Made by a program: the position numbers and the translations under genes. A model generated the notes under the pieces. That model worked only from the letters and a program-made list of their open reading frames with translations. It was not told the DNA's origin and did not search any database. From Vibrio coralliirubri (GTDB taxonomy: Bacteria; Pseudomonadota; Gammaproteobacteria; Enterobacterales; Vibrionaceae), in the NCBI RefSeq assembly GCF_024347375.1, contig NZ_AP025471.1, forward strand, positions 124,001-188,000: 64,000 bases of DNA, read 5' to 3'. This document shows, piece by piece, positions 9,316-26,311 of the stretch; the first letter of the stretch is position 1, and the number at the start of each line of letters is the position of its first letter.

Positions 9316-10215
9316 TTACTTAGCTTTAAACGGCACCAACAGTTGTTTGCCAAACACATTGATTAACGCGCCAGTCACGATTAGACCACCACCTAGGTAA
9401 GTCCAAACTGATGGAATCTCGTTGAAGATCCACACACCTAATAGTGCTGAGAATACGATTTGAACATATGAGTAAGCTGAAGCCTTGCCTGCTGCTTGGG
9501 TTTGCATCGCTTTGGTTAAACCGTATTGGCCTATTTGTGTGAAAATCCCGACCAGAACCAACATCATGGTTAGGAACAGGCTAGGCCACACAAAGTCGTT
9601 CCAGATAAGGGCGGTGGAGATTGGGAGAGCAACCAGAGGGAAGTAGAAGATGATCACTGAGCTGTCTTCCGTTTGGCTAAGCTTTCTCACAATCACATAA
9701 GCAATTGAGCTACCAAATGCGCCACATAACGCCACCATAATGCTGAATAGCGGTAACTCGCTGCTCGCGCCGCTGTTCATACTTGGCTGAACCATCACTA
9801 ATAATCCTGCTAAGCAGAACGCAATGCAGATCATGGTCGACTTTTGGACGCGTTCTTTCAGAAACAGCACGCCAAGTAGGGCGGTAAATACAGGGTGAAC
9901 GTATTGTAGAATGGTCGCTTCTGCTAATGGCAAAGTGGTCACAGCGTAGTAAACACACATCAAGGCTGCTGTGCCAACTGCGCCTCGAACAAACAACAAA
10001 GGTTTGTTATTTCCCCAGATCGAAATGCCTTTTCGCTTAACGTCGATATAACTGATGATCAAAGACACTAAAGCCCTTGCTGCAACAATCTCGAATACAG
10101 GTATGCCGTAGTTGCTGATGTATTTCACACACGCTGACATCAGTGCGAATCCAAAAGCAGAGAGGATCATGAACCGAACCCCAACAGGGATCATTGAAAA
10201 AGAGAAAGAAGGCAT
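9316..10215 (-). CDS. DMT-superfamily (EamA) transporter
   Basis: A 299-residue inner-membrane protein with about ten transmembrane helices in two EamA repeats. The first repeat ends near ATILQYVHPVFTALLGVLFL and the second near YSYVQIVFSALLGVWIFNEI, the conserved helix pair of the family. The family exports metabolites such as amino acids or purines; the substrate cannot be told. It is convergent with the VOC gene. Confidence 0.85.
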   Translation of the reverse strand: MPSFSFSMIPVGVRFMILSAFGFALMSACVKYISNYGIPVFEIVAARALVSLIISYIDVKRKGISIWGNNKPLLFVRGAVGTAALMCVYYAVTTLPLAEATILQYVHPVFTALLGVLFLKERVQKSTMICIAFCLAGLLVMVQPSMNSGASSELPLFSIMVALCGAFGSSIAYVIVRKLSQTEDSSVIIFYFPLVALPISTALIWNDFVWPSLFLTMMLVLVGIFTQIGQYGLTKAMQTQAAGKASAYSYVQIVFSALLGVWIFNEIPSVWTYLGGGLIVTGALINVFGKQLLVPFKAK

Positions 10216-10482
10216 AAAAATATCAATCGGTTGAGGGAACAGGAATCATAACTTAGTTTAGAAGAGCCTACCAAAGTCTTTGTCCTGTTCTGGTCAACTT
10301 GATTCAATTAATTCTCATTTCAGATCGATTCGTTTTTATCTCGCATAAGATCGGCTATAGCTCAATTTTATAAAATCAATATCAACAGAAGGTGACGCTA
10401 ATTCAACTCTGATTTATCGGTCGTTTTAATTGTCTTTCTTAGTCATATCATTCTCGTGAATTTATAATAAGAGATATGTTCT

Positions 10483-11883
10483 ATGAAACCAGTCAATACC
10501 CTACTCATATCCGCGCTCGCGCTTTGCTCTTTCAGTTCAGCTACTTATGCAGACACCATCTTGCACGCTTTCAACTGGAAATATTCAGATGTGACAGCCA
10601 ACGCCAATCAAATTGCTCAAGCCGGTTATAAAAAAGTACTGGTTGCTCCGGCAATGAAATCGAGCGGCAGCCAATGGTGGGCGCGCTACCAACCTCAAGA
10701 TCTTCGAACCATTGATTCACCTCTCGGCAATAAACAAGATTTGGCCGCAATGATTGCCTCACTTAAAGCCGTGGGCGTTGATGTATACGCTGATGTGGTG
10801 CTCAACCATATGGCGAATGAAAGCTGGAAGCGAAGTGACTTGGATTACCCAGGCACCGAAGTGCTAAACGATTATGCGAGCCGTTCAAGCTACTATGCTG
10901 ACCAGACTCTGTTTGGCAATCTAGCGCAAGGTTTTGTCTCCGCTAACGATTTCCATGCCGCGGGCTGTATTTCAGATTGGAACGACCCTGGTCATGTTCA
11001 ATATTGGCGTTTGTGCGGGGCTGATGGCGATGTAGGTTTGCCTGATCTCGACCCAAATAACTGGGTGGTTTCACAGCAGCGCTTATATCTGAAAGCATTA
11101 AAGGATATGGGCATCAAAGGTTTCCGAATTGATGCGGTGAAGCACATGAGCCAGTATCAAATCGATCAGGTATTCACACCTGAAATTACAGCGAACATGC
11201 ATGTGTTCGGTGAAGTGATTACCAGCGGTGGAGCAGGGAACAGCGGCTATGAGTCGTTCTTAGCGCCATACTTAAACAACACCAATCACTCTGCGTATGA
11301 CTTCCCACTGTTTGCGTCGATTCGTGCTGCATTCTCGATGGGCGGTGGCTTGAACCAACTGCATGATCCAAAAGCGTACGGCCAAGCACTCGATGACAAC
11401 CGTTCGATCACTTTTGCGATCACACATGACATTCCAACCAATGACGGCTTCCGTTATCAAATTATGGACCCACAAGATGAGCAGCTTGCTTACGCTTACA
11501 TCCTTGGCAAAGATGGTGGCACGCCGTTGATTTACAGTGATGATCTACCGGATTCTGAAGATAAGGATAACGGTCGTTGGGGCAATGTTTGGAATAGCTC
11601 GAACATGAAGAATATGCTGAGCTTCCATAACGCGATGCAAGGTAAATCAATGACGATGATTTCGAGCGACCAATGTACTTTGCTGTTTAAGCGTGGCAAA
11701 GAAGGCGTTGTAGGAATTAACAAATGTGGCGAAACGCGTGGCGTGACGGTTGATACTTACCAGCATGAGTTCAATTGGCATGTTCAATACAAAGATGTAT
11801 TAAGCAGCGCGACAGAAACCATTTCTTCTCGCTACCATACGTTCAATCTACCACCACGCAGTGCGCGTATGTTTAAGCTTTAA
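10483..11883 (+). CDS. secreted GH13 alpha-amylase
   Basis: A 466-residue glycoside hydrolase. The signal peptide MKPVNTLLISALALCSFSSATYA ends at residue 23, so it is exported. The GH13 motifs are all visible: DVVLNHM (region I, 104-110), GFRIDAVKHM with nucleophile D217, FGEVI with acid/base E244, and FAITHDIP with D316. It hydrolyses alpha-1,4 bonds of starch or glycogen. C165-C178-type paired cysteines may form disulfides. It is monocistronic, with its own hairpin downstream. The short C-terminal beta domain (from about 390) is typical for bacterial alpha-amylases of about 450 residues. Confidence 0.92.
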   Translation: MKPVNTLLISALALCSFSSATYADTILHAFNWKYSDVTANANQIAQAGYKKVLVAPAMKSSGSQWWARYQPQDLRTIDSPLGNKQDLAAMIASLKAVGVDVYADVVLNHMANESWKRSDLDYPGTEVLNDYASRSSYYADQTLFGNLAQGFVSANDFHAAGCISDWNDPGHVQYWRLCGADGDVGLPDLDPNNWVVSQQRLYLKALKDMGIKGFRIDAVKHMSQYQIDQVFTPEITANMHVFGEVITSGGAGNSGYESFLAPYLNNTNHSAYDFPLFASIRAAFSMGGGLNQLHDPKAYGQALDDNRSITFAITHDIPTNDGFRYQIMDPQDEQLAYAYILGKDGGTPLIYSDDLPDSEDKDNGRWGNVWNSSNMKNMLSFHNAMQGKSMTMISSDQCTLLFKRGKEGVVGINKCGETRGVTVDTYQHEFNWHVQYKDVLSSATETISSRYHTFNLPPRSARMFKL

Positions 11884-19309: not shown

Positions 19310-20353
19310 ATGCGTATCGAACAAGAACTTAAGTTAGGTTTCAAAGATGTACTCTTCCGTCCGAAGCGTTCTACCCTTAAAAGCCGTTCTCAAGTTGAAT
19401 TAACCCGCGATTTTACATTCAAGCATAGCGGTCGTCAATGGTCTGGTACTCCAGTAATTGCAGCTAACATGGATTCGGTAGCAAGCTTTGAAATGGCAGC
19501 TGCTCTAGCAGAGCACGGTGTTATGACTGCAGTACACAAGCACTACACAGTAGAGCAGTGGGCTGAGTTCGCTAAAACAGCAGACAAGAAAACACTGAAC
19601 AACGTATTTGTATCAACGGGTACATCTGAAGCTGAGTTTGAGAAAACAAAGCAAATCATGGCGCTTAGCGAAGACTTCGTATTTATCTGTATTGATATCG
19701 CTAACGGCTACTCAGAGCACCTAGTTGAGTACGTACAAAAAGTACGTGCTGAATTCCCGACTAAAGTTATCTCTGCTGGTAACGTTGTAACAGGTGACAT
19801 GGTTGAAGAGCTAATTCTAGCTGGCGCAGACATTGTTAAGGTTGGTATCGGCCCTGGTTCTGTTTGTACTACACGTGTTAAAACAGGCGTAGGTTACCCT
19901 CAACTTTCTGCAATCATCGAGTGTGGCGACGCAGCACACGGCCTTGGCGGCATGATCATCGGTGACGGTGGCTGTTCATGTGCGGGTGACGTATCTAAAG
20001 CGTTCGGCGGCGGTGCTGACTTCGTAATGCTAGGCGGCATGCTAGCAGGTCACTCTGAGTCAGGCGGCGAAGTTGTAGAGCAAGACGGTAAGCAATTCAT
20101 GAAGTTCTACGGCATGTCTTCACAGTCGGCTATGGACAAGCACTCAGGTGGTGTTGCTAAGTACCGTGCTGCGGAAGGTAAAACTGTTTTGCTTCCATAC
20201 CGTGGTTCAGTTCACAACACAATTTCTGACATCCTTGGTGGTGTACGTTCAACTTGTACATACGTAGGCGCAGCAAAGCTTAAAGAGCTAACTAAGCGTA
20301 CGACTTTCATCCGTGTACAAGAGCAAGAGAACAACGTATTCGGTAAAGAGTAA
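19310..20353 (+). CDS. guaC: GMP reductase
   Basis: A 347-residue IMPDH/GMPR-family TIM barrel that reduces GMP to IMP with NADPH, recycling guanine nucleotides. [19 protein letters not shown] opens the protein; [11 protein letters not shown] (catalytic cysteine) and the flap segment [13 protein letters not shown] are characteristic of GMP reductase. It lacks the CBS domains of IMPDH. AAGGAAA precedes the ATG. The 3' end is the known target of guaC-attached Tn7-like elements, and a transposon end begins 22 bp after the stop codon here. Confidence 0.93.
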
Positions 20354-20374
20354 TCTGAACTGATTCAAATAGTT

Positions 20375-20452
20375 TGTAAAAACAACCATACCTTTAAATG
20401 GCTCATAAAGTGTACAATGCTTTAGTAAGTTTACAACAGGTATGGTTGTTTT
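20375..20452 (+). mobile_element. Tn7-like transposon end with TnsB-type site
   Basis: TGT at 20375 is followed after four bases by ACAACCATA (20382-20390). This is the same layout, TGT-N4-ACAACCATA, that I recall for the terminal TnsB site of type I-F3 CRISPR-associated Tn7-like elements. A second copy of the site in opposite orientation (20438-20452) gives 15-bp inverted arms. The end lies 22 bp after guaC, a known attachment gene, and tnsA follows, as at the right end of Tn7. Confidence 0.75.
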
Positions 20453-20896
20453 ATTATAAAAAAGCGAATTCTCAGAAACTCTTCTGTAAAAAACATATTC
20501 CACTTTGTTAGCCTCAAAACGAACTCCATCCACACTGTGGAGTCTGACCTAGAGTTTGATGTATGCGTCCACTTCGAGTTTTCGCCACAGATTGTCAACT
20601 TCGAAGCTCAACCTATCGGTTTTGAATACTTTATTGAGGGTAAGCGACGTAGATATACGCCTGATTTTTTAGTCACCTACAAAGATTCATACCAATCATT
20701 CTATGAGATCAAGCCCAAGCACATTGCAGAGAAAGATGAGTTTAAAGAAAAGTTTAGAGCTCAGAAAGAGCAAACATTGGACTGTGGTCAAGATCTGTAC
20801 GTGTTGAGAGAGGATGGCTTTCAGATATACCCGCTACTCGAAAACCATCAAACTGATTGGCGCTGGCTCTATCAATGGAGACATAACCATTGGTAA
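20453..20896 (+). pseudogene. tnsA: truncated tnsA endonuclease
   Basis: A frame homologous to TnsA runs from about 20453 to 20896. The usual GTG at 20537 is too far downstream: the translation upstream (KKRILRNSSVKNIFHF...) still matches TnsA, so the true start has probably been lost or is a non-canonical ATT near 20453. The nuclease core is intact, with TPDF (acidic residue) and EIKPK (E-x-K). Only about 130 TnsA-like residues are present; the C-terminal domain is missing and the last 15 or so residues (WRWLYQWRHNHW) look foreign. TnsA cuts the 5' ends of the element in cut-and-paste transposition. No tnsB, tnsC, tniQ or cas genes remain, so the element is dead. Confidence 0.75.
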
Positions 20897-21005
20897 CTAG
20901 AGAGTTTTGCTGTTCTGATGACAAACTACTAAAACTTATAGGGAGAGCAGTGGTTGTAACTGCAACCCCTAACATTTTTAAACTGTCTCTACGACTTATT
21001 TCCAT
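20840..21005 (-). pseudogene. 5' fragment of a Tat-exported protein gene
   Basis: Starting at 21005, about 40 residues read MEISRRDSLKMLGVAVTTTA then hydrophilic sequence. The RRDSLKM twin-arginine motif plus a hydrophobic stretch is a Tat signal. The frame then runs antisense into the end of the tnsA fragment, so both genes are truncated at a shared junction somewhere around 20840-20895. The mature protein cannot be identified. Confidence 0.45.
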
Positions 21006-21376: not shown

Positions 21377-22430
21377 GGCTTTGTTGCGTAATTAAATTTA
21401 GAGATAGAGCCAACCCGTTTCGCTTGTTTCTTAGTCAATACGACAAGTTTCAGGCATACCTAACCCAGTAAGCTTGTTCAACGCTTTTATCATCGCGTAA
21501 GTTTCACCCACCTGGGCATTGTAATTTCTTAAGCTCAGTTTCCCTCCTAGCAACTGTTTAACTCGATACATCGCTGTTTCTGAGAGTGAACGTTTGTGGT
21601 ATCCATACCGCTCTTTCCAATACTTATTTGAGTCGTATAATTTCTGGCAACCCACGGCGAAATTTCGAGGGTGACCACGCTCCCAGAAGGCAGCCCCTTC
21701 TCTTGGGGGAATAAGCGCAATAGCTCCCTTAATCTTAATAGCAGCGTGACACGCTCTCGTGTCGTAAGCGCCATCACCAGACACCTCAAGGATACTTCGG
21801 CGTGTTTGTTTCAGTAAGTTCGGGAGTACTTCTCCATCTGTAACCGTCGATAAACTTAGCTCGGCGGCAATGATCTCATGAGTGTTGGTATCGACTGCAA
21901 TATGCAGCTTTCGCCAGACTCTACGCTTGCCATCCGTCCCATGTTTTTTGACTTTCCATTCACCTTCGCCATAAACCTTAAGGCCAGTAGCATCAATGGC
22001 TAGGTGCTGTATCGCTCCTCTCGTTTTAGTCTTAAATGAAACCTCAACTTGCTTGGCTCTACGACTGATGCAGGTGTAATGCGGACAACTTAACGGTACA
22101 TGGGCTAACCTAAATATCGAGTCGATAAATCCTTGCAGCGCTCTCAATGGCATAGAAAAAACTCGTTTGACCATGAGTGCTGTCGTGATAGCTAAATCAC
22201 TGAACCGACGCGGCCTACCGCGCTTATTCTGTTTGCTTTGCGCCCATCCGCTTATTGCTTCTTCATCAATCCAAAAAGTCAGAGAACCACGGTTAATGAG
22301 TGATCGGTTGTATTGCTTCCAGTTGGTTGTTTTATAACGAGGCTTAGGCATAGGACTACGAGATAGAGTGGAGGTAGCTGATCAGATCGTAGGTTCTTGA
22401 TTTAGTTCCATTGAATTACGCAACAAAGCC
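21377..22430 (-). mobile_element. IS5-family (IS903 group) element, copy 1
   Basis: A 1054-bp element with termini GGCTTTGTTGCGTAATT and its complement. Its left flank is CCTCCAATG and its right flank ATATTTTTC, which do not match, so it has taken part in a rearrangement. The CCTCCAATG flank instead matches the flank of the stub at 23323. Confidence 0.93.
21431..22351 (-). CDS. IS5-family transposase, copy 1
   Basis: A 306-residue DDE transposase, identical in all five full copies of the window. Catalytic residues are D120 (IDATG), D193 (SGDGAYD) and E258 within Y251-x2-R254-x3-E258-x6-K265, the IS5/IS4-type Y(2)R(3)E(6)K signature. The N-terminal region is basic and likely binds the ends. 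It is complete, so the element is probably still active. Confidence 0.93.
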   Translation of the reverse strand: MPKPRYKTTNWKQYNRSLINRGSLTFWIDEEAISGWAQSKQNKRGRPRRFSDLAITTALMVKRVFSMPLRALQGFIDSIFRLAHVPLSCPHYTCISRRAKQVEVSFKTKTRGAIQHLAIDATGLKVYGEGEWKVKKHGTDGKRRVWRKLHIAVDTNTHEIIAAELSLSTVTDGEVLPNLLKQTRRSILEVSGDGAYDTRACHAAIKIKGAIALIPPREGAAFWERGHPRNFAVGCQKLYDSNKYWKERYGYHKRSLSETAMYRVKQLLGGKLSLRNYNAQVGETYAMIKALNKLTGLGMPETCRID

Positions 22431-23322
22431 ATATTTTTCTTCATTCATCACTATTTTCTCGTTAGTTTAGCCCCCCTAAATAAAAGTCATTTCATTGCCA
22501 TACGGCTATTCAGAAATTTCAAATGATTTTTTATTTTGTTCTTATTTATTAGTATGAGTGAGAGGTACTTATGTTAAGGTTAACTATAAGGTAATGCTGA
22601 TGTAACACTTATTTTTATAACATACAATTAATTATATATGTGCTTCCTAAAAGAAATTACATATATTAAATCTAATTATTTATTTAGATTACTTCGAGTG
22701 GCTACCACCATTTGAAGTATAATAAGGTTTCCGGCCTGAAGGGTAGTTCTCTAGTAGAGTTAACGTTTTCTTTTCTCCTGTGTGAATATTTTCACACGTA
22801 ACGCTACCGTTCACTTTCGACACTTCTTTCTTTTCTATTACTTTAATCACTACATTATATTTTAAATATTTAATTTTGGGCTTCTCGGCATTGCTCAACC
22901 ACGTAACTTACTGCAATAGCAACACTATCACATGAACTTATCACTTAATTTTTGATGATAATCAAAAGTGCCTAAACTTATTCTTCCTGAGTAATATAAG
23001 TAAACAATAATGGATTATACGCAATGACAATCTTTCAAAAAATCACCTTTGTTTTGATACTTTAGATATTAAGTCAAAGGGTCATTTCACTGTTGGAGAT
23101 AAGTAAGTGTTAATTTAATATACATGGCTTTAAATGAAGCTATTGCTTCTGAGCAATCTCTTTAGATTAAAGACGTCGCATACTTTAGCTTTAATTCCCA
23201 GTAGTAGCATTTAGTTGTCTTAAGACAAATGAACAGAGGTTTACTTAATCATTCGATTAGTCTTATTCGTTGAGAAGTCGTCATCTATCTGGTTGTCCCT
23301 CGATTTTGATTGCCATTGGAGG
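22431..23322. other. inverted segment between IS copies
   Basis: AT-rich segment flanked by oppositely oriented IS copies. Apart from a doubtful 69-codon frame on the minus strand, I see nothing definable. Matching of target duplications shows that this segment has been inverted by recombination between the two IS copies. Confidence 0.6.
22689..22898 (-). CDS. doubtful small protein
   Basis: A 69-codon frame starting with TTG and lacking a good ribosome site. The protein is lysine-rich (KPKIKYLKYNVVIKVIEKKE) and of unknown function. It is listed because it is the only plausible frame in the inverted segment; it may be a chance frame or a gene fragment. Confidence 0.25.
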   Translation of the reverse strand: MSNAEKPKIKYLKYNVVIKVIEKKEVSKVNGSVTCENIHTGEKKTLTLLENYPSGRKPYYTSNGGSHSK

Positions 23323-24467: not shown

Positions 24468-24816
24468 CTTTCTCAAGGTAATAGTTCGCTTCAATGCCAA
24501 ACTTCCAAGGGCGTCCATTCAGAACCGTTGTTTTGCTAACACTGATATTCAACGGAATTTCCGCCTGATCCTTATTCCAGTCATAGGTGAATGTCGGCGC
24601 AGAGCCCACAGTCCAACCTCCTCCTAATATCTCAACCCAAAACACTTGTGTCGATGTCTTGTTGATTCGAGTATCAGAATGGTCGGCTCCGTCTCCAGAA
24701 ACACCATACAAGTGATTTGGAAACATACCGAAAACTCGCTCGCTACTCGCCTTCCCGACCATAAACTCTGGCCCGACAGCAAATTGATCCGCCGTTAAGT
24801 CACTGCTGCCCGTAGG
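24468..24816 (-). pseudogene. fragment of an outer-membrane transporter-like gene
   Basis: The minus-strand frame runs through the whole 349-bp piece between IS copies 2 and 3 (about 116 residues, no own start or stop). It contains QFAVGPEFMVGKASSERVFG and TYDWNKDQAEIPLNISVSKT, resembling the beta-barrel proteins often annotated as neuromedin-U-like or phenol-degradation outer-membrane transporters. Both ends were removed by the IS copies. The family call is tentative; the coding nature is convincing because the frame stays open end to end. Confidence 0.5.
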
Positions 24817-25870
24817 GGCTTTGTTGCGTAATTAAATTTAGAGATAGAGCCAACCCGTTTCGCTTGTTTCTTAGTCAATACGACAAGTTTCAGGCATACC
24901 TAACCCAGTAAGCTTGTTCAACGCTTTTATCATCGCGTAAGTTTCACCCACCTGGGCATTGTAATTTCTTAAGCTCAGTTTCCCTCCTAGCAACTGTTTA
25001 ACTCGATACATCGCTGTTTCTGAGAGTGAACGTTTGTGGTATCCATACCGCTCTTTCCAATACTTATTTGAGTCGTATAATTTCTGGCAACCCACGGCGA
25101 AATTTCGAGGGTGACCACGCTCCCAGAAGGCAGCCCCTTCTCTTGGGGGAATAAGCGCAATAGCTCCCTTAATCTTAATAGCAGCGTGACACGCTCTCGT
25201 GTCGTAAGCGCCATCACCAGACACCTCAAGGATACTTCGGCGTGTTTGTTTCAGTAAGTTCGGGAGTACTTCTCCATCTGTAACCGTCGATAAACTTAGC
25301 TCGGCGGCAATGATCTCATGAGTGTTGGTATCGACTGCAATATGCAGCTTTCGCCAGACTCTACGCTTGCCATCCGTCCCATGTTTTTTGACTTTCCATT
25401 CACCTTCGCCATAAACCTTAAGGCCAGTAGCATCAATGGCTAGGTGCTGTATCGCTCCTCTCGTTTTAGTCTTAAATGAAACCTCAACTTGCTTGGCTCT
25501 ACGACTGATGCAGGTGTAATGCGGACAACTTAACGGTACATGGGCTAACCTAAATATCGAGTCGATAAATCCTTGCAGCGCTCTCAATGGCATAGAAAAA
25601 ACTCGTTTGACCATGAGTGCTGTCGTGATAGCTAAATCACTGAACCGACGCGGCCTACCGCGCTTATTCTGTTTGCTTTGCGCCCATCCGCTTATTGCTT
25701 CTTCATCAATCCAAAAAGTCAGAGAACCACGGTTAATGAGTGATCGGTTGTATTGCTTCCAGTTGGTTGTTTTATAACGAGGCTTAGGCATAGGACTACG
25801 AGATAGAGTGGAGGTAGCTGATCAGATCGTAGGTTCTTGATTTAGTTCCATTGAATTACGCAACAAAGCC
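24817..25870 (-). mobile_element. IS5-family element, copy 3
   Basis: Full 1054-bp copy in minus orientation. Flanks GCCCGTAGG and TCTCTACTC do not match, again pointing to IS-mediated deletion. Confidence 0.93.
24871..25791 (-). CDS. IS5-family transposase, copy 3
   Basis: A complete 306-residue transposase identical to the other copies. It faces copy 2 with the barrel-gene fragment between, so copies 2 and 3 together could mobilise the 349-bp piece as a compound unit, although no target duplication supports such an event. Confidence 0.92.
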   Translation of the reverse strand: MPKPRYKTTNWKQYNRSLINRGSLTFWIDEEAISGWAQSKQNKRGRPRRFSDLAITTALMVKRVFSMPLRALQGFIDSIFRLAHVPLSCPHYTCISRRAKQVEVSFKTKTRGAIQHLAIDATGLKVYGEGEWKVKKHGTDGKRRVWRKLHIAVDTNTHEIIAAELSLSTVTDGEVLPNLLKQTRRSILEVSGDGAYDTRACHAAIKIKGAIALIPPREGAAFWERGHPRNFAVGCQKLYDSNKYWKERYGYHKRSLSETAMYRVKQLLGGKLSLRNYNAQVGETYAMIKALNKLTGLGMPETCRID

Positions 25871-26311
25871 TCTCTACTCCTAGAGGAAAATGTTCTTTGT
25901 GGGAGTGTTCGGTTCTTTGAGATAAGTCATTTGGGATAACTTTATTCTATAACCATTCATATATTTATTGTTATACGGTTTCGGAGTATGGCGACTTTCA
26001 ATCTTGCAGGACTTGGCTTGTCGCCATACTTTCCTTTTCGTGGGGGGTCTATCTCTAAGTTTCGTTTTCTCTATGAGGGTAGATGCTAAACACATACGGC
26101 TTGCTACGCAATATGACAGATGTATGTATAAATTTAACCGATGTTAAATTTCTTTGAATGTTAACAATGCAAAGACAGTAGAAATATAGTAATTAATCGA
26201 GTGTGTTTTAGGAAGGAAGTAGAAATAGTTGTTTGGTAAGTTCTAATCATTAAATATAAGTATGAACTTAAGTTTTAATTCCCTGTTTTATTACTTCTGG
26301 ATAACGCGCAT
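25871..26311. other. non-coding gap between IS copy 3 and the DUF819 gene
   Basis: No credible gene. It contains an 11-bp inverted repeat, AGTATGGCGAC (25985-25995) with GTCGCCATACT (26020-26030), 24 bp apart. The left end of the Tn7-like element should lie in this region but no TATGGTTGT-N4-ACA end was found. Confidence 0.45.

Follow-up and report, generated by a model that had tools for sequence, protein, structure and literature searches.

A probable right-hand remnant of a guide-RNA-homed type I-F3 Tn7-like transposon behind guaC in Vibrio coralliirubri

Which element left the short stump that follows guaC on chromosome 2 of Vibrio coralliirubri, and how did it come to rest there? The gene lies in a stretch of 64,000 nucleotides (contig NZ_AP025471.1, positions 124,001 to 188,000, forward strand), which is called the window here and to which all coordinates without prefix refer. 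A sequence-only reading had proposed a decayed Tn7-like transposon attached at guaC, of the group that includes type I-F3 elements, and this proposal was strongly supported by homology, by anatomy and by the distance between guide target and insertion. The stump is very probably the right-hand part of a type I-F3 CRISPR-associated Tn7-like transposon which was homed to guaC by a guide RNA; this kind of mobile element is known, and the window contains a decayed example of it. As no further tns or cas genes were found at the locus (tnsB, tnsC, tniQ, cas8/5, cas7 and cas6 were looked for in the window), it is described as the remnant of an element and not as an element. The features of the site are as follows.

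19310 to 20353, plus strand: guaC (GMP reductase/IMPDH-like), the attachment gene, an intact ORF of 347 aa
20294 to 20325, plus strand: protospacer to which the guaC homing guide found in sister I-F3 elements is directed (24/32 to the guide of G133)
20370 to 20374, plus strand: TAGTT, presumed copy of the target-site duplication at the right end (direct reading)
20375 to 20401, plus strand: right end with the terminal 8 bp and one TnsB-type site (ACAACCATA at 20382-20390)
20377 to 20390, plus strand: junction of a 43-bp loss, TAAAAACAACCATA, present once here (alignment with relatives)
20379 to 20393, plus strand: arm 1 of a 15-bp inverted repeat without mismatches, located in the tnsA leader
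20438 to 20452, plus strand: arm 2 of this repeat, adjoining the former tnsA start
20456 to 20845, plus strand: tnsA remnant of 130 codons that begins with ATA and lacks the remainder of the gene
20846 to 21005, minus strand: foreign sequence joined to tnsA, an ORF that forms the beginning of a gene whose leader resembles the twin-arginine type (MEISRRDSLKMLG..., by reading)

The closest sister guaC is 98% identical to the one in the window. Its stop codon ends at 20353 and TGTAAAAACAACCATA starts downstream of it at 20375. The terminus had been placed 22 bp past the stop, which agrees with the count of 21 bp in between and a TGT that begins on the 22nd base. It reads TGT-AAAA-ACAACCATA at 20375-20390. 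The insertion site is guaC and not glmS, the attTn7 of protein-guided Tn7, and the genome's one TniQ-family match lies in another element, on chromosome 1. With zero mismatches, the end pattern TATGGTTGTNNNNACA was found at two sites in the two-contig genome of 5.74 Mb, namely at the right end in the window and at C2:1005872. When one mismatch was allowed, the whole genome gave 31 matches versus 138 for the reversed control, and at least one match occurred in 68 of 100 shuffles of the window; the window itself has no second site even then. The motif by itself proves little, being at about chance level once one mismatch is allowed, and the case for a remnant is carried by where the end lies, by homology to tnsA and by how the stretch aligns with relatives, not by the motif alone.

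In site and TGT-N4-ACAACCATA end, the stump is like the I-F3a guaC/IMPDH elements of V. cholerae HE-45 and V. parahaemolyticus ISF-25-6. Unlike them, it has only the right end and part of tnsA, with one TnsB site, and its terminus is TGTAAAAA compared to TGTTGA in the guaC/IMPDH I-F3a elements. We take HE-45 to be the host of Tn6677/VchCAST. By its guaC site, the stump is assigned to the I-F3a group. In print, guaC and yciA are given as I-F3a attachment sites (PMC11406308), and insertion just past guaC/IMPDH as well as a TGT-N4-ACAACCATA end are described for I-F3a elements (PMC6360697).

The frame behind the end had been read as TnsA well upstream of a GTG, located at 20537, and this was borne out, since it is free of stops from 20429 to 20893. 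A comparison with TnsA profiles had been proposed with it. Translated, 20453-20893 matched the TnsA N-terminal family PF08722 of Pfam with an E-value of 5.7e-15 and 56.1 bits (cut-off 26.5 bits) and the solved PseTnsAB fusion protein with 5.4e-23 over residues 7-133. In relatives, tnsA encodes 206 aa and starts with ATG. The homology in the window ends at approx. 20845, and the final 48 nt of the open frame are foreign. This foreign sequence (20846-21005) matched chromosome 1 of G116 with 72% over 158 bp, the only one among 147 sister genomes searched, and its ORF had no match in Pfam. The gene start with the twin-arginine-like leader runs antisense to the fused tnsA stump. Alignment with relatives showed three lesions in total: 43 bp lost from the right end, the tnsA start changed from ATG to ATA, and the 3' part of tnsA gone.

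The inverted repeat 20379-20393/20438-20452 is part of the right end and the tnsA leader. Its reading as a miniature element was rejected, as the longer relatives have the same repeat with arms 44-46 nt apart. The right end of VchCAST has a palindrome 97-107 bp from the end (PMC10201428). Inverted repeats of about 15 bp were seen in the tnsA leaders of both end families, in the window and 18 survey sisters, with 12-15 of 15 positions paired; for G017, G086 and G127, the leader palindrome did not exceed the top score among 60 shuffles. Arms of the TGTAAA family resemble TnsB sites, and both arms have changed together in G002.

Three loci out of 22 pattern stretches were obtained when genome contigs were scanned with the translated stretch: Vibrio sp. 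Isolate34 (L003, G133 in the survey), Aliivibrio finisterrensis (L004) and an uncultured Vibrio (L005). All of them have guaC, then the end, then tnsA, and the window aligns with them from the end to codon 130. The best TnsA segment of the Isolate34 element and of the A. finisterrensis stump is 79% identical to the window, and the window's inverted repeat is found there at 14 of 15 positions in the same guaC-end-tnsA order. The Isolate34 element differs by its intact tnsABC and cas genes (Csy4, E 2e-40; Csy3, E 5e-94; a Csy2-like protein, E 1e-12), neither of which the window has, while A. finisterrensis kept tnsA and only the start of tnsB. Between L003 and L004 (~9887-10640), right end and tnsA are nearly identical and the neighbouring genes differ, a likeness that probably reflects recent transfer between genera. 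No tnsA relative was found among the 22 pattern stretches of viral contigs. Eight plasmid-filed records match guaC, of which the longest reaches 13 nt into the end (Photobacterium sp. DA100) and none reaches tnsA.

How common such sites are was seen in a survey of the genus. Among 148 genomes drawn, guaC was matched in 145, the own genome included (weakly in G053 and G125). The 3' flanks were taken for 100 of the 144 matching sisters, and 98 of these could be parsed (not G064 and G094); contig ends truncate the flanks of G001 (only 377 nt) and G123. An I-F3 end or tnsA was present at 22 of 99 guaC sites, window included, with 18 sites recognised by the motif, G031, G126 and G127 by tblastn and G092 by a later check. 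ACAACCATA lies within 150 nt of the guaC stop in 19 of the 99 flanks, comprising 18 of the 22 occupied and one of the 77 other sites. It had been said that the reading would fall if the motif occurred in empty guaC loci; the empty sites lack the end sequence, and in the one exception (G069), the motif stands at +119, beyond the terminator and with no TGT-N4 ahead. The tnsA frame is open over at least 206 aa in 7 of the 22 occupied sites; in the other 15, the window among them, it is interrupted, cut off or not seen where it would be expected. G092 (L141) has a further guaC CAST scar about 20 nt past the stop; its first TnsB site has suffered a small internal deletion, and its tnsA stops after ~25 codons. 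Second, partial guaC 3' ends (~250-375 bp, 86-93% identical) were noticed at G077:C12:818211, G124:C140:227409, G146:C2:648926 and elsewhere, the distance to guaC being 37-39 kb for G077 and G124 and ~1.3 kb for G146. They perhaps mark integrative elements of another sort, each arriving with its own copy of the guaC 3' end.

The remainder of the element has to be looked for in a neighbourhood that is rearranged among many copies of one insertion sequence, labelled IS5-type by us.

21377 to 22431, minus strand: IS5-type copy 1 with a DDE transposase of 306 aa
23413 to 24467, plus strand: IS5-type copy 2, with a 91-bp piece of the same IS just before it
24470 to 24813, no strand assigned: segment native to the DUF819 locus of the sisters, inverted between IS copies 2 and 3
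24814 to 25873, minus strand: IS5-type copy 3

The segment of 344 bp at 24470-24813 matches L013-L015 with 88-93% in reverse orientation. The DUF819 gene, which is near guaC in the window, is hundreds of kb away from it in the sisters compared by coordinates, e.g. G087 and G006, and the gene that follows guaC in 7 of 10 sisters (glutathione-transferase-like by reading) is found here at C2:998134. The IS5-type sequence has at least 51 matches in the genome, at least 40 of them full-length at a printed identity of 100%; 40 of 89 candidates were scored, and at least three more copies, recognised as ORFs, come on top (window copy 3, C2:1009999 and C1:2578253). This single sequence has undergone a large recent expansion in the genome. 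When 10.5 kb of the Isolate34 element was compared with the genome as DNA, the stump was the only match on chromosome 2, and chromosome 1 gave a match of 82% over ~0.8 kb of cargo (C1:1424337) and four shorter ones.

Sister sites were studied by reading 31-52 kb downstream of guaC in six occupied genomes. Both ends lie within the stretch in four of them, and the flanking 5-mers match in G133, G005 and G017 and mismatch in G006. In G133, the ends are 30.3 kb apart with AATAG at both, and the termini pair TGTAAA on the right with TGTTGA on the left. The yciA-attached I-F3a element of V. parahaemolyticus RIMD2210633, with the right end tgtaaatacaaccatac and the left end tgttgatacaaccata (PMC6360697), shows the same kind of pairing as G133; it differs in its attachment gene and its size of 80 kb.

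A copy of TAGTT at a left end was not found in the own genome; the sole left end found, at C2:1005872 (L044:11873), carries TTAAA in the sense of guaC. It directly abuts guaC terminator sequence, 861 kb from guaC, and by eye its flank is of another guaC-downstream sequence type. The inner TnsB sites of this left end seem to be lost, too (by eye), and inside of it, a helix-turn-helix-like gene and a broken transposase-like ORF were read. One may ask if a single element gave rise to both this left end and the right end at guaC, an IS5-by-IS5 inversion of ~0.86 Mb having separated its two halves. The direct contact with the guaC terminator, the TGTAAA/TGTTGA pairing in G133 and in published V. 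parahaemolyticus yciA elements (PMC6360697) and the IS copies near both ends would suit such a split, which we nevertheless consider unlikely: the 5-mers (TAGTT versus TTAAA) and the types of the flanks (by eye) disagree, so that at least one further event, a second insertion or an exchange of flanks, would be needed, and the own-genome stretches examined did not contain the junction that a single inversion should have made with the far side of the DUF819 locus. The left end at C2:1005872 may instead stem from another insertion.

It had also been stated that all other tns and cas genes are gone. This is correct for the guaC element as searched: the TnsA, TniQ and Csy3 families have no match on chromosome 2 beyond the stump. 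It does not apply to the strain. A complete-looking I-F3 element adjoins the SRP-RNA gene (Rfam RF00169, L007:422-518) on chromosome 1 at ~2579860-2606520, so the strain is not free of I-F3 transposons. It contains tnsABC, tniQ, cas8/5-cas7-cas6, a short array and restriction-modification-like cargo (by reading). The second TnsA (C1:2605924), the one TniQ and the one Csy3 found in the own genome all belong to it, next to tnsB- and tnsC-like ORFs, Csy4 and a Csy2-like protein. Its second spacer resembles SRP RNA by eye. By its site, the element would be I-F3b (PMC11406308), and its region has no ACAACCATA-type end by the pattern used.

Neither a cas gene nor an array belonging to the guaC element was found, and it is identified as I-F3 by its tnsA, its end and its spacing from the target, which was measured with a guide from sister elements. 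A delocalised guaC guide lies outside the array in G133, G005 and G017, with diverged repeat-like flanks (by reading), as is known for homing guides between atypical repeats (PMC12774636). These guides are identical to the guaC 3' end of their own genome at 23-26 of 32 positions. An exact 5-base seed at 24/32 had given no guide, and an unseeded scan at 21/32 recovered them. In G006 (read to its left end) as well as in G087 and G116 (first 15 kb), no guide was found, the best sites being chance-like with 21-22/32. Rfam reported no CRISPR or guide family on L057 and L059, only a group II intron.

The G133 guide has its best site in the 64-kb window at 20294-20325 with 24/32, followed by 20/32 for the next best; 300 shuffled guides reached a maximum of 20 on the 201 bp of the guaC 3' end. 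The best match is thus guaC itself, and the locus holds no copy of the guide. CT at 20292-20293, before the protospacer, fits the published 5'-CN PAM (PMC12774636). The protospacer ends 49 nt before the right end, compared to 47 nt for G133, 48 nt for G005 and 47 nt for G017 with their own guides. Published distances between protospacer and insertion are 49 bp for a V. parahaemolyticus system (PMC12774636) and 46-52 bp for VchCAST (PMC10201428).

These values also bear on the idea that the Tn7-like element behind the scar found guaC through a protein selector (TnsD/TniQ), with no guide RNA involved. It would agree with a locus that has no cas gene left, and it is highly improbable given that the closest same-site relative with more genes has Csy genes, that three sister guaC elements carry a guaC guide, and that the insertion lies 49 nt from the target of that guide. 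Homing by guide RNA remains the preferred reading.

The layout behind guaC had been taken for the right end of a guaC-attached element. This was confirmed as to its kind, yet the end is not complete, as 43 bp are missing. The missing stretch is present in L003, L004 and L005. The 14-mer TAAAAACAACCATA occurs in L005 in two copies 43 bp apart (counted by hand) and once in the window, where one TnsB site is left after the loss between the right-end repeats. From the TGT to the second palindrome arm, the distance is 63 in the window versus 106-107 in the seven survey sisters that share this palindrome (106 if the arm is read in one and the same register). The same 43-bp loss was found in three of 18 sister right ends measured, namely G061, G116 and G127. 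A second end family includes a shortened end with 70 versus 113 in five relatives, other members ranging from 110 to 119, and the loss thus occurs in two different end families. Over the following 150 nt, G061 scores 0.89 against the full-length G005 and 0.71 against G116 (ungapped, so that indels depress the values), which hints at separate events of loss.

In all four shortened ends (window, G061, G116 and G127), tnsA is broken. Shortened ends were found in 4 of 12 sites with broken tnsA and in none of 7 with open tnsA (one-sided p 0.13, not significant). This count covers 19 occupied sites out of 22. In G001 and G112 a tnsA leader could not be made out; G092, likewise not counted, has a broken tnsA and an end that is not 43 bp shorter, and its inclusion would slightly weaken the association. 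The correlation is suggestive only. VchCAST has three TnsB sites per end, all of which except RE3 are needed (preprint PMC13370975); by inference from this system, a right end with one site should be inactive. On this basis we tentatively propose, at rather less than even confidence, that guaC-attached I-F3 elements have been frozen repeatedly by one lesion, a loss of 43 bp (one R1-to-R3 register) between TnsB sites. Neither this loss nor guaC scars were described in the literature searched with the terms used; a report of 171 CASTs for which no ends were predicted mentions that their TnsB sites may be degenerate (PMC8649781).

The proposed course of events begins with homing by guide RNA, which would have inserted the element 49 nt downstream of a target within the guaC 3' end. 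A slip or a recombination event from one TnsB repeat to the other would then have removed 43 bp and left an end unable to move, since the first two right-end sites are needed in VchCAST. Later events among the IS5-type copies may have removed or relocated the rest and put guaC beside the DUF819 locus.

The stump was probably broken recently. Its tnsA remnant has a dN/dS of 0.063 against G133, with a dS of 0.99 that is near saturation, and the low ratio would mostly reflect the time before decay. Together with the open frame, it fits recent decay and would fit a retained product, too. At residues invariant in four relatives, the window differs at 7 of 94, and each relative's tnsA differs from the other four sequences at 1 to 4 of 88-91 invariant residues, which favours a recent relaxation of selection. 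A domesticated role, be it as an expressed TnsA nuclease-domain protein or as a regulatory end, e.g. for TnsB-binding target immunity, would explain the 130 codons without stops, the low dN/dS and the perfect inverted repeat, and is nonetheless the least credible reading of all, because the start codon and the C-terminal part of tnsA are lost, the frame is fused to foreign sequence, more invariant residues are changed than in relatives and the remaining I-F3 element is of the SRP-RNA-attached group and shows no ACAACCATA-type end by the pattern used.

Most likely, the stump does nothing at present, as the normal start of tnsA is gone and no partner proteins of its own kind were found. The suggestion that the scar might still steer new insertions or prevent them found no support: the target of the guide is within guaC and is intact with or without the scar; the guaC target beside the stump is most likely free for a new element. 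The agreement in distance suggests that an RNA-guided insertion can be recognised from its scar once no CRISPR parts remain. In other respects the scar is ordinary, and its value is that it documents how RNA-guided transposons die. The equal losses of 43 bp are the part worth following up: if the proposal is true, a route to immobilisation would be inherent in the way the right-end repeats are laid out, and the remaining element would decay afterwards.
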